Source: Nannobrachium achirus (lineage: Eukaryota > Chordata > Actinopteri > Myctophiformes > Myctophidae). From it: a stretch of 64,000 nt of DNA. Shown one piece after another: positions 3,620 through 64,000 of this stretch. The DNA is taken from contig OY997661.1 in NCBI GenBank assembly GCA_963921795.1, positions 39,206,122-39,270,121 of the forward strand. The letters are read 5' to 3'. Both the position numbers and the translations under genes were made by a program. The notes below the pieces were generated by a model that did no database searches, was not told the DNA's origin, and worked only from the letters and a program-made list of their open reading frames with translations. How positions within the stretch are numbered: position 1 is the stretch's first letter; every line of letters begins with the position of its first letter.

Positions 3620-4051
3620 TCTATTTAGGCCTAGAATTATTGAATGCTTTAACCATTGAAAAATAGCAGATATACAAGCTCTTGTAGATCTGCTATTTTT
3701 GAAAAATCACGAAACATTTGTGCAACTCTTTGAATATCTTATTTTTAAAGTGAACACATGTAACTCAAATATTTGCTTCTGGGGGGTCCCTGATACAAAA
3801 TATTTATATATATAAATATATATAATTCTAGGCGTCCTTGACATGAAAGAGTTTGAGAACCACTGACGTAGAAACATGTGTTTTTCAAAAAAACCTTACA
3901 AGGATTTAGAAGACACTTATAGAATCGGGTCAAAATTTAAAAGATTTTTTTTTAAATAGCAGATCTACAAGCTCGCTGCGAGCTTGTAGATCTGCTATTT
4001 TTCAATAGTTACAGCATAAATAATGCGTATTATGCGGTCTAAATGGGTTAA
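3620..4051 (-). mobile_element. Two-hairpin MITE, TTAA-type end, next to a gtf3c3 exon
   Basis: The element carries two copies of the window's recurrent palindrome (3659-3702 and 3954-4000) around a spacer that includes CCTTGACATGAAAGAG and GAGAACCACTGA. Its right end reads AAATGGGTTAA, matching the TTAA-bounded copy at 38204-38807 in reverse orientation; its left end is degenerate. It ends 38 bp before the splice acceptor of the gtf3c3 exon at 4090. Confidence 0.6.
3954..4000. repeat. Perfect palindrome core (23-bp arms)
   Basis: This is a cleanest short form of the recurrent hairpin. The left arm 3954-3976 (AAATAGCAGATCTACAAGCT then CGC) is the exact reverse complement of the right arm 3978-4000, with one base between them. 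Confidence 0.9.
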
Positions 4052-4089
4052 AATAGTTTATGTGTGCCTCTCTCTTTCTCATACTGTAG

Positions 4090-4144
4090 GTTGATGCTAA
4101 TGGACAATGTTGAACGCCCTCAGCTCTGGAACATCTTCAACCAG
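4090..4144 (+). CDS. gtf3c3: gtf3c3 coding exon (first in window)
   Basis: The exon encodes LMLMDNVERPQLWNIFNQ after one leading base. The acceptor is CTCATACTGTAG and the donor is CAG|GTGAGT. Confidence 0.9.
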
Positions 4145-7100
4145 GTGAGTGCTTGAGCAAGCATCGCTCCTGCACGTACCACGCATTTAGTCAGGGAATT
4201 TTAATAAAACCCTGGGAATAAATTCCTTACCAAACAATTTCTTCACCAATGTGTTCGTAAAGGTGTCTAGTAACATATCTAACAAAGATTGAAATTCAAC
4301 ATCCCTAGCAAAATGTTTGACAGCTAGGGTAATTCATGGGTCTCATTCACTAAAGCCCTTTGCACACAGGCGCGTTTAACCGCACGGATAAAACGGACAA
4401 TATAATTTTTTGAAAAGAAAACACTGATTCTCTATGACCTCATGCACACCGGCTCCGAATTAGCCGTGCGACGAGTGGCTGCCGCCGTGCGTTTTTTTCT
4501 CGATCGAACCCAGTTCGATTTGTGCGTCTTGTCGCATGCGGTAAAAAACTCATCACTCCTTTTATGACTCCTTTTTGGATCCGCAGCGCCGATTCCGCAC
4601 AGCCTTGCACACCAAATCCAATGCGTTTTATTCATGCCGCAAACGAAAAAAACGCAACTGTCCTGTGTGCAAAGGGCTTTACTATACACTGTACTATAAG
4701 GGGAAAAAATCACTCCCAAAAATATGCTTGTAAACGGATGAGCGTTGACTCGCGTCTGTGATGATCGGTGTCATGCCGGTCCCCCGAAGTGCCCTGGATC
4801 CATTTTCCAGTGTGTGTTGTTGCCCCCCCAGGCAGTGTTGGGGAAGTTACTTTGAAAGCGTAACTTGTACAATTACAACTAACTCACCATGGCAGTAACT
4901 TGATCAAGTTAAAGTTATACCCCTGGAGAAATGTAACTTATAATGTTTCAAGTTACATTGAAAAAGTTACTTGAGTAACTTGAGTTACTTTTTTTTTCTC
5001 AGCGTTAAATTGAGAATGTACATTTGGTGTACATGAAACAAAATATAATATCCTACAAAAAAAGTCACATGCCAGCAGAAATATACCTCTCACCTGAGTT
5101 TCATGTTTTATTTCAAAAAGGTTTTTTATTTTTTTTAGTAAACATCTGTGTTCCTAAAATAAAATTAAAAAAAGAAGAAAATGATGATCTGTTGAGGACA
5201 TTTGTAACGTCACTTGTAACTTGTAACTTGAGCCAAAAATGACCCAAAAAGTATCTCAGTTACTTGACTAGTTACAGAAATATGAATGTAACTCAGTTAC
5301 CAGCAAGTTACAGCAAAATGTAACTTAGTTACGTAAATCAGTTACATCTGAGTTACATAACTCAGTTACATTTAACTTAGTTATGTAACTCGGTTACATG
5401 TAACTTAGTTACGTAACTCAGTTACATGTAACTTTAACTTCCCCAACACTGCCCCCCCCCCCCCCCCCCCCCCCAGGTGACGTTTAAATCTCAGGACCAG
5501 CGTCATCACCGCTTCTGTCTGCGGCTGATGTTGAAGAACCCAGAGAACCTCGCCTTGTGTGTCCTCTGTGGACACAATGCCCTGGTGTCTGGCAGCTTCA
5601 AGCATGCTCTGGGTACGCACACACACACGCCTGCACGCACACTAGGGGTGCCACGGTTCAGTCAGCCCACGGTTCGGTTCGTATCTCGGTTTTTGGCTCA
5701 CGGTTTCGGTAAAGTAAAAATTTAAAATGAAAAAATAAAGAATCCGAAATGTTCAGTTCATTTTAAAGTTGGGGTGCAATCATTTGTTTCCCCCCTAAAA
5801 CATGATATTCAGTTATTATGATTATACTAGGAGGAAGACTTTCTCCAAAAAAAGTGTACAGAAAGAGTTAAAATTATGCTTCTATGTGGCCACACCCAAA
5901 TAATAAAGAAATTCGGTTCATTCGGTATGGGCTGTTCGGTTCGGTACAGGGCCATTCGGTTCGGTATACCGGTTCGGTTCAGTATTGTGGCACCCCTAAT
6001 GCGCACACACACACACACACACACACACACACACACACACACACACACACATGCGATGCATTGTGAGCTTGTAGATCTGATATTTTTTTGGCAAAGACAT
6101 TTGATAGAGAGGGGAAAAAGACTGTATCAAGTACGTATATTATAAGTACCTTTTACCAATTATAGAGGGTTTAAGTGGTACCGGATATGCAGCTCGGCAA
6201 ATAAAAGGTGAATTGATCCCAGTGCATGACGGAGGACGATATCACGATAAATTAAATCAAAGGGCAGTCCGTCCATACAGTCTCCGACCACCGAACTTTT
6301 CGTCAGAAAGGTACGGTTCAACTACAAAATGACGCCACTCGCAACTTCTGAAAAGGATTTGCCCGAATTTGAGTTTGGAAAGCTGCACTTTCCGACGAAA
6401 AGTTTGGTTGTCGGACGTCGGAGACGGTATGGACTGCCCCTAATGCTTTTCAGAAGTTCGAGTAACGCCATTTTGTAGTTTCCGATGAAGGGTTCGGTGG
6501 TCGGAGACGGTATGGGCTGCCCTTAAATAAGAAATAGCTACCCCTACACACACCCCCTGTTTCCTGACGAATCACACCCAGTGTGAAGTGAGCGGTGCAT
6601 TTTATGACTTCATTTCATTAAGCGTCCCGCGAAGCTTGGCCAGTGAGCCAAGTGTGGGACATACATACGTACAGACAGACAAAGCCAGATGTAGGAGCGG
6701 TTAGCACCACTCAAGAACAACTGTATACAAGCATATACAAGCTTTACCATCAAAGACGGCTTCTTCAAACGTCACCGTCCCGTGACGTGGCACCTGTGGC
6801 GTGACCTGTTGCATTTCGGAGCCGGTACCGAGATCTCGAGTTCTTTCCGCGGCCCCGGGGTCCCCATCCGGAAATCAATGGGGTTAAATGTATTGTAATC
6901 AAATTATTGTCTTACGAATGCAACAAAAAACATAAACTATTATTGAACTCAAGTCTCCATGGCGTGAGTAATCGATAGGAAAAAAAAAGTCATTTTGGGG
7001 GTGAACTACTCCTTTATGGTTTGGTTTAGGTGCTACCTCCCGTATCGTCGGCAGGTTAAAATTTCACCTGCGTGGGGCGCCCGCTGGCCTGGTGGTCAAG

Positions 7101-62645: not shown

Positions 62646-63190
62646 ACCCTGAAAGCGTTGACACTGAAACCGCTGCCTTCTTGGTGGACTTACCATACGG
62701 AACAAAGAGACAGGTTGACCGCCTACACTCTTTTGTCCTGTCACAGTAAATCTTCAAAGCCCTGACAGGGCACAGAAGATGTAGCCGCTTATCCTCCTCT
62801 GAAGTAAAGGGAGGAGGAATGGAAGGCCAGGAGTTCCACCGGAACATCCTGGACCACCCCATCCTTAGGTAAGAACTGTAGGTGGGGCTTCAGCTGGACA
62901 CTGCGAAGACCACTAGTAAACCTCATGCAATCCTCTGACACTGAGAGAGAATGGAGGTCACTCACCCTCTTGGCTGTAGTCAGAGCCAGGAGGAGAACCG
63001 TCTTGAGGGAGAGCATTTTCAAAGAAACGCTCTCTAGTGGTTCAAAAGGAGCCTGACTCAGGCCCTTCAACACCACCTCCAAGTCCCAAGACGGAAAGAG
63101 GGGTCTAGAGGAGCCATTGCCCCTCAAGACCGCTGCCATAAACTGGACCACCCAAGGATGTTGCGAGGGCTTGGTCCCACCAAACCATTG
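62640..63190 (-). pseudogene. DIRS-type tyrosine recombinase fragment
   Basis: On the minus strand two overlapping frames carry pieces of the C-terminal tyrosine recombinase of DIRS-like retrotransposons. The first has LFPSWDLEVVLKGL, PFEPLESVSLKMLSLKT and LALTTAKRVSDLHSLS, the last containing the conserved catalytic Arg region. The second has PPPFTSEEDKRLHLLCPVRA and LKIYCDRTKECRRS. They should be one frame; the switch lies near 62815-62830, so a frameshift is present. The downstream part with the catalytic His-Arg and Tyr boxes is missing. Such enzymes integrate circular cDNA without an endonuclease. Family assignment is from recalled sequence similarity. Confidence 0.75.
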
Positions 63191-63197
63191 ATGGCTA

Positions 63198-64000
63198 GGG
63201 TTGGGGGCGGTAACCGCCGTACCGCCGTACCGCGGTATACCGAGGCATCAGGGTCCTTACCGCGGTCAAAATAGTCTATTTTTTATTGAAAACAAGCGAG
63301 TTTTAAAACGGGGGAGAGGCGAGGACCGCATGCGCTCCATGCCGCTCTGCTCTGGGCCGCGTACCACAGGTTTGGAACGTCTATGGTTTGGAAGCCACAT
63401 ACGTCACTCGACTCGGAGACACAGTCTACACACAGCAGCAGCCTCGTAGTAGGGAGCACGGAGAAGCGTAAACTTTCTCTGACTGTAATCCACACAACAC
63501 AAGTACGTTAATACATACCTTGTGTTGTGGCAGTAGTACCTTGTGGCATTTTGTTTTTTATTCATACGGATTACAGGCGGAGCGCGGACCGCGTGGACTA
63601 AAACCGAAAATGAAACTATCTTTTACTTTTCCCACCGCGACCGCGTCGCGCCGACTCGCCCGTTGTGCCCCGTCGCCGATTTTATAACCTTTTCTGTCAA
63701 GTCTTGTCACTAAAACCTGTATATATCAGCACTCAATCGCTGCGATTTCAGACGTGAGTTAATCACTGTACACGATCTGATTACCCGTCTCCGTCTCTTC
63801 TGGTTTGTTCACACACAGAAGTCTGTGTCTTAAAAGCCCAAGTAGCTACCGTTACTATGGTAACCCGACAGTGCAGATCTAAAAGCTCAGAACGCGTCGC
63901 GGATGCGACGTGTTGTGAGCTTGTAGATCTGCTCCTTTCAAAGCCAAACCTGCTGTGTACTGTGGAAGTATAACTCGGGCAGTCAGGCTGTGGAGAGGCG
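63198..64000. repeat. MITE, TAGGGTTGGGGGCGG family, open to the right
   Basis: The left end is TAGGGTTGGGGGCGGTAACC. A palindrome core with GCAGATCTAAAAGCTC and GAGCTTGTAGATCTGC arms lies at 63872-63934. The right end is outside the window. Confidence 0.55.

Follow-up and report, generated by a model that had tools for sequence, protein, structure and literature searches.

A short palindrome recurs inside miniature inverted-repeat transposable elements (MITEs) of different families in a 64,000-nucleotide stretch of the genome of Nannobrachium achirus (Myctophidae; GenBank assembly GCA_963921795.1, contig OY997661.1, positions 39,206,122 to 39,270,121), referred to here as the window. In this study, we found that interiors built around this one hairpin occur under both TTAA-type and hAT-type termini. 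Where host groups differ by fixed substitutions, both arms of the hairpin have usually changed, whereas private substitutions hit one arm. We read the 69-bp hairpin as a conserved internal module of non-autonomous hAT-type transposons, kept foldable and exchanged together with the interiors of its hosts, and we hold this reading at about even probability.

Abundance and structure of the hairpin

The arm of the palindrome was matched 68 times in the window with at most three mismatches, compared with 0.08 matches expected by chance and a largest shuffled count of one. With up to four mismatches, 73 arms formed 47 loci, 26 of them two-armed and 21 single-armed, in agreement with the more than 40 recurrences counted in the initial annotation; 15 of the 26 two-armed loci were 66-72 bp long. 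The total of 47 includes a tandem duplicate (11892/11979) entered twice and the pair 34008/34140, which is far apart. All 23 coordinates listed earlier fell within 11 bp of an arm match, with the left arm at 63872 needing four mismatches. A perfect 87-bp tandem duplication was observed at 11829-12002 (2.0 copies, 100%), and its break falls within a hairpin.

In twenty 10-kb stretches placed arbitrarily in the genome (194.8 kb excluding N), 132 arms were found at 88 loci, of which 44 were two-armed and 17 full-length. Across the window and these stretches, the reversed arm pattern gave three matches versus 205 for the true pattern. Genome-wide (1.66 Gb), the exact arm 18-mer was found 115,884 plus 115,965 times, approximately 232,000 in all, and its reversed control 0 times. 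Searches of the window with Rfam yielded nothing reaching the gathering score, and ARAGORN yielded zero tRNAs.

The most frequent length was 69 bp (31 of 78 paired hairpins), made up of two 33-bp arms and a 3-nt loop. The unit is a near-perfect hairpin, and in most host groups its stem extends outward by 6-14 bp of family-specific sequence; this extension is almost absent in group E. Folded as single-stranded DNA, four window hairpins gave -37 to -52 kcal/mol (z -10.6 to -18.0), including the full-length hairpin at 37576-37644, which with its stem extension reached -51.9 kcal/mol (z -18). The three apex classes described previously were present and tracked the host group, and a fourth class, CGCATCGC, was added in group F.

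Host elements and exchange of interiors

Host elements were scanned with termini that we supplied, allowing at most three mismatches at each end and keeping flank pairs with at most two mismatches. Ten complete hAT-type hosts of 387-598 bp were found in the window, with 8-bp target site duplications (TSDs) that were perfect in six and had one mismatch in four. Short terminal inverted repeats of hAT style matched at both ends of the same ten hosts, and hAT dimerisation domains are present in the genome. The termini named in the initial annotation were thereby recovered with 8-bp TSDs.

After clustering of the flanks of 228 arms, 45 representatives were compared past their first 12 nt. Eight pairs scored above the top score (18) of 2970 shuffles and were treated as links. 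These links placed f3/f3b/f3c and f1/f14/f21/f46 in group A and f2/f37 in group B, and joined f19 with f19b. None of the remaining pairs among the 45 flanks exceeded the shuffled maximum of 18, with some at 15-16. At least ten host groups have in common, as far as seen, just the hairpin and approximately 11 nt.

Group E interiors were found under both kinds of termini. The TTAA-ended host at 38204-38807 (+ strand; TTAACCC..GGGTTAA, with TTAA at both ends) carries hairpins at 38267-38335 and 38694-38762. It shares 287 bp at 89.9% identity, hairpin included, with the hAT-ended host CAGGGGTGTCACA at 16022-16494 (+; TSD GCTCCATA, 8/8), which has a hairpin at 16112-16180 and a half hairpin at 16405. 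It also shares 257 bp at 93.4% with the hAT-ended host CAAGGGCGTCACA at 32577-33066 (+; TSD 7/8; hairpins at 32660-32728 and 32953-32989) and 295 bp at 81.4% with 11800. Group B interiors occurred under two hAT termini, namely CAGGGGTTCCCAAAC at 37387-37900 (+; TSD GCTTATAG, 8/8; hairpin 37576-37644) versus CAGGGACGTGCTGG at 49544-50088 (+; TSD 7/8; shortened hairpin 49765) and 19354-19902 (+; TSD TGCGTGTG, 8/8; half hairpin 19624). The stretches shared around the hairpin in group B measured 100 bp (89% identity) and 172 bp (69%). One hairpin, at 41342-41419, is chimeric and joined within the hairpin itself, with a left flank and arm of the f19 type and a right arm, apex, and flank of the group E type. 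The earlier suggestion that the module spreads by recombination is supported by group E and by this chimera, and more weakly by group B. Separately, the two-sided ATG marker of group C was seen in the hairpin of a group A host (L011, 4194), which suggests exchange of a whole hairpin.

The remaining hAT-type hosts belong to groups A, C, and D. Group A includes the host CAGGGGTCTTCA at 16975-17480 (-; TSD CTAYAAGC, 7/8), with a full-length hairpin at 17264-17332. The flanks of the host TAGGGATGGGACAATA at 26585-26979 (+; TSD CTATCAAC, 8/8; shortened hairpin 26703-26738) fell with group A in the clustering by way of intermediates, and direct BLAST similarity to the 16975 host covers only about 30 bp. 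Two group C hosts share the terminus CAGTGGTTCTCAACC: 21354-21740 (+; TSD 7/8; half hairpins 21452 and 21473) and 27972-28569 (+; TSD GGTTACAC, 8/8; hairpin 28110-28178). The hosts at 19354 and 21354 are the two of the ten that carry half hairpins alone. In group D, the host CAGTGTTGTTTTTG at 53596-54141 (+; TSD GTGAGTGC, 8/8) has a near-central hairpin at 53838-53906. By eye, GTGAGTGC resembles a 5' splice donor (GTGAGT) after coding-like sequence, and therefore this MITE insertion may have duplicated a splice site.

Hosts of TTAA type had been proposed. Of these, only the TTAACCC type looks TTAA-terminated, and it is complete at 38204-38807; a second copy at 44472-45042 (+; hairpins 44534-44602 and 44962-45030) has an altered right end. 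Another, TTAACCACTTGAACCC, is internal to a larger element in the 20 copies read, since the similarity among most of these copies continues past it in both directions. In the copies at 38204-38807 and 44472-45042, about 100 bp lies between two CTATGTCAG repeats and is missing from the related 54395 copy, a possible nested insertion.

Constraint on the stem

Covariation was examined in 29 of the 31 full-length hairpins, with two near-duplicates left out. Both-sided changes were found at 27 of 45 stem pairs, a number reached in 0 of 500 shuffles. Both-sided cells numbered 151, compared with 67 in shuffles, and fell to 30-52 when the pairing was shifted by 1-3 columns. The shuffles ignore relatedness, and therefore fixed and private changes were compared. 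A change was scored as fixed when a group consensus differed from the overall consensus, and as private when a single copy differed from its own group. Fixed changes between groups were two-sided in 14 cases and one-sided in nine, whereas private changes were two-sided in six and one-sided in 107 (Fisher p=4.8e-9). When the duplicated E hairpin was counted once, the fixed ratio was 11:7 (p=8.9e-8). Three of the six private two-sided changes sit in one divergent copy (L024, 673).

Position 8 of the stem showed a mismatch. In the consensus of groups A, B, D, and F, one arm has A and the other C; in H4, the left arm has A in 7/7 and the right arm C in 5/6. Group E has A in both arms, and in groups C and G one of the arms is mixed. 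Judged from these alignments, the A/C mismatch, seen in five of six readable groups, is apparently old and persistent. In A, B, and H4 it is the A arm that points toward the nearer hAT end, and the same holds in F for the one end found. In group C the near arm has A and the far arm is mixed, and in group D the hairpin is almost central. A consistent orientation of the mismatch to the host end is suggestive, not conclusive.

These patterns bear on the alternative that the hairpin is a functionless passenger, in which template switching repairs imperfect palindromes and extends their arms into host-specific flanks. In two published reports, template switching gives rise to hairpins, maintains them, and homogenises the arms of inverted repeats (PMC8794818, PMC8604942). 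Homogenisation of this quasipalindrome kind would account for two-sided changes and stem growth without selection, and the stems do reach 6-14 bp into family-specific sequence in most groups. It leaves unexplained why one hairpin occurs across different elements and why the position-8 mismatch persists. General repair should erase such a mismatch first, yet it is kept in A, B, D, F, and H4, and private changes are one-sided in 107 of 113 cases. We regard the passenger explanation as rather unlikely. General arm repair as the whole story is disfavoured by the one-sided private changes. Given these changes and the persistent mismatch, we lean towards folding having been kept by selection.

Copies without the hairpin

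The initial annotation had raised the possibility of a very small mobile palindrome that inserts into MITEs. Host flanks were joined without the hairpin and searched against the fish's own genome; the copies fetched were taken from the highest-scoring of 40 candidates per search, and the counts are therefore not genome frequencies. In group D, 20 copies were fetched and none was core-less with both flanks intact, as all 20 had remnants or flank loss. The same was true of 10 out of 10 copies in H4. Six were fetched in group C; five had remnants or ended in a repeat-mediated deletion, and one (L052) was ambiguous. Across these three hAT families, remnants or the loss of flank sequence were thus found in 35 of the 36 core-less candidates, with varied breakpoints. 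The source of these families already had the hairpin, because nearly all of the core-less copies read are ragged deletions.

Groups A and B gave a mixed picture. Among the copies fetched in group B, 10 of 20 had a single clean ACTAGT, where filled copies have two, and the other 10 had remnants or altered junctions. The clean junction could have arisen by deletion between the ACTAGT repeats found at the base of the stem, or it could be a true empty site. Eight of 20 copies fetched in group A had the junction AGCCAAAG, the rest being altered or carrying remnants; this junction retains GCC from one arm and is compatible with deletion across CAAA. In a tree of group B (22 rows), core-less copies were scattered, requiring six changes compared with a shuffled mean of 7.5, and a single core-less clade was also compatible (p-AU 0.267). 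Among the candidates read in C, D, and H4, 35 of 36 were thus no precise empty sites and L052 was ambiguous, and the clean junctions of A and B may be either deletions or empty sites. Precise insertion of a palindrome, as assessed by joined flanks, gained no support in C, D, and H4, with L052 ambiguous, and the result was ambiguous in A and B.

An ultra-short palindrome of approximately 69-91 bp that transposes itself into MITEs and then hitch-hikes would explain why at least ten host groups share so little besides it. Several unlinked flanks start with TCACTACTTTT or a close variant of it before diverging, the single versus double ACTAGT of group B is what a target duplication would give, and L052 would qualify as an empty site if the unit includes the stem extension. 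The deletions in 35 of 36 candidates speak against such a palindrome. Direct repeats at the base of the stem lie where the clean A and B junctions fall, GCC of one arm is retained at the A junction, the flanks of filled sites are mostly inverted rather than direct repeats, and with respect to the nearer host end the hairpin is oriented alike in A, B, and H4 and partly in F and C. We consider this explanation unlikely overall; at most, such a palindrome may have moved by itself in older events.

Transposase-bearing hAT elements

Five hAT families with a dimerisation domain were looked at. In one of them (L087/L088, with 96.5% identity across 3.2 kb), which has exons for zf-BED and hAT dimerisation, both copies read carried a diverged 69-bp hairpin, 165 bp from the element end and before the zf-BED exon. 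This stretch folds weakly better than shuffles (z -3.2). The other four families had no two-armed hairpin in the stretches read, of which L085/L086 were comparable across a 2-kb block only and two more families at their 5' parts only. One copy in the L089/L090 family had one weak match to an arm, inside its edge. That every hAT transposase element carries the hairpin is ruled out for the families seen.

A further alternative is vertical descent from an old hAT ancestor with a subterminal hairpin, which stayed recognisable as ends and flanks diverged. The position of the diverged hairpin in the L087/L088 family fits such an ancestor, as do the A/C mismatch common to five groups, with matching orientation where readable, and the similar termini of several hosts (CAGTGGTTCTCAACC, CAGTGGTTCCCAAAC, CAGGGGTTCCCAAAC). 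One ancestor already carrying the core, the scenario that the initial annotation gave as its refutation, may apply to the hAT families, with no flank homology found in its favour. Against descent, similarity between groups did not rise above the shuffled range in the 45 flanks compared, the group E interior also lies under TTAA ends, and four transposase families were without a two-armed hairpin in the stretches read. Vertical descent is in our view improbable as the explanation.

Comparison with known systems

The closest published parallel that we found is CMITE of corals. CMITE comprises MITE families of about 100 bp that have differing terminal inverted repeats, TTAA target duplications, and a common interior of approximately 75 bp more conserved than the ends, whose origin and role are given as unknown (PMC2872659). 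Here too, families whose ends differ have an interior that is better conserved than those ends. Unlike CMITE as described there, the hosts here are mainly hAT-type with 8-bp TSDs (the ten of 387-598 bp), with a TTAA-ended type besides, and what they share is a hairpin. Zebrafish Angel is described as a high-copy DNA element whose long inverted repeats allow it to fold into a stem-loop, with compensatory changes reported in two long non-coding RNA copies (PMC3636048). Compared by description only, Angel is one family, whereas the present element is a short hairpin inside many families. We found no report of a fish hairpin common to hAT MITEs in the open-licence literature, and one may still exist in print elsewhere. 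The contrast between two-sided fixed and one-sided private changes, together with the old A/C mismatch, is new here.

Other features of the window

Further hairpins lie outside the hosts described above. A full-length group F hairpin at 18040-18108 has a hAT-like terminus, CAGGGGTGGGCAAC, approximately 120 bp to its right, and the opposite end was not found. The hosts of a full-length hairpin at 18916-18984 and of a diverged 70-bp hairpin at 63868-63937, which has a second copy in L027 at 8830, were not delimited. Group C includes a 70-bp hairpin at 35430-35499 with an internal 15-bp repeat and a full-length one at 43318-43386, flanked by short pieces of the usual flanks and then by a different repeat context.

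The window also contains a 564-aa open frame with 15 C2H2 zinc-finger stretches at 159-1853 (-) and a 626-aa open frame with a reverse transcriptase domain, possibly a long interspersed nuclear element, at 58702-60582 (+). An open frame at 41457-42131 (+) matches the HECW N-terminal domain, and the window may be in or near a HECW1/2 gene.

Discussion

In the reading that we prefer, a conserved module exchanged with its host interior, a new family would arise when recombination, nesting, or template switching sets a hairpin-bearing interior between transposon ends. Lineages that amplify would be enriched for foldable hairpins. The hairpin behaves as a resident of its hosts: it is passed on within families, often lost by deletion from single copies, carried along with the interior at least in group E, and still complementary in those lineages that multiply. 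Its likeliest role, proposed tentatively at about one chance in three, may be to aid transposition or copy gain in cis through a DNA hairpin formed near the element end during replication or excision. A stronger form, in which an oriented hairpin plug-in passes between hAT-type and TTAA-ended elements, boosts the copy-making of its carrier, and is selected to stay foldable, is in our opinion doubtful.

Several observations weigh against the module reading. Most groups have the hairpin alone in common, and exchange is well seen in E and weakly in B. In L052, the core and stem extension are gone and both outer flanks are present, which could be a deletion or an empty site. Clean core-less copies in B (10/20 fetched) and A (8/20) mean that copies may spread without the hairpin. 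Four of the five transposase families had no two-armed hairpin in the stretches read, the A/C mismatch is not universal, being absent from E, and the two-sided changes could come from slow template switching.

This palindrome illustrates how readily short hairpins are deleted in a large animal genome. Setting the two-sided fixed changes against the one-sided private ones offers a way to test for selection at the source with sequence data alone. Should the hairpin help the elements that carry it to multiply, it would be a cis-acting module common to different types of transposon and could explain the very high copy numbers of certain MITE families.

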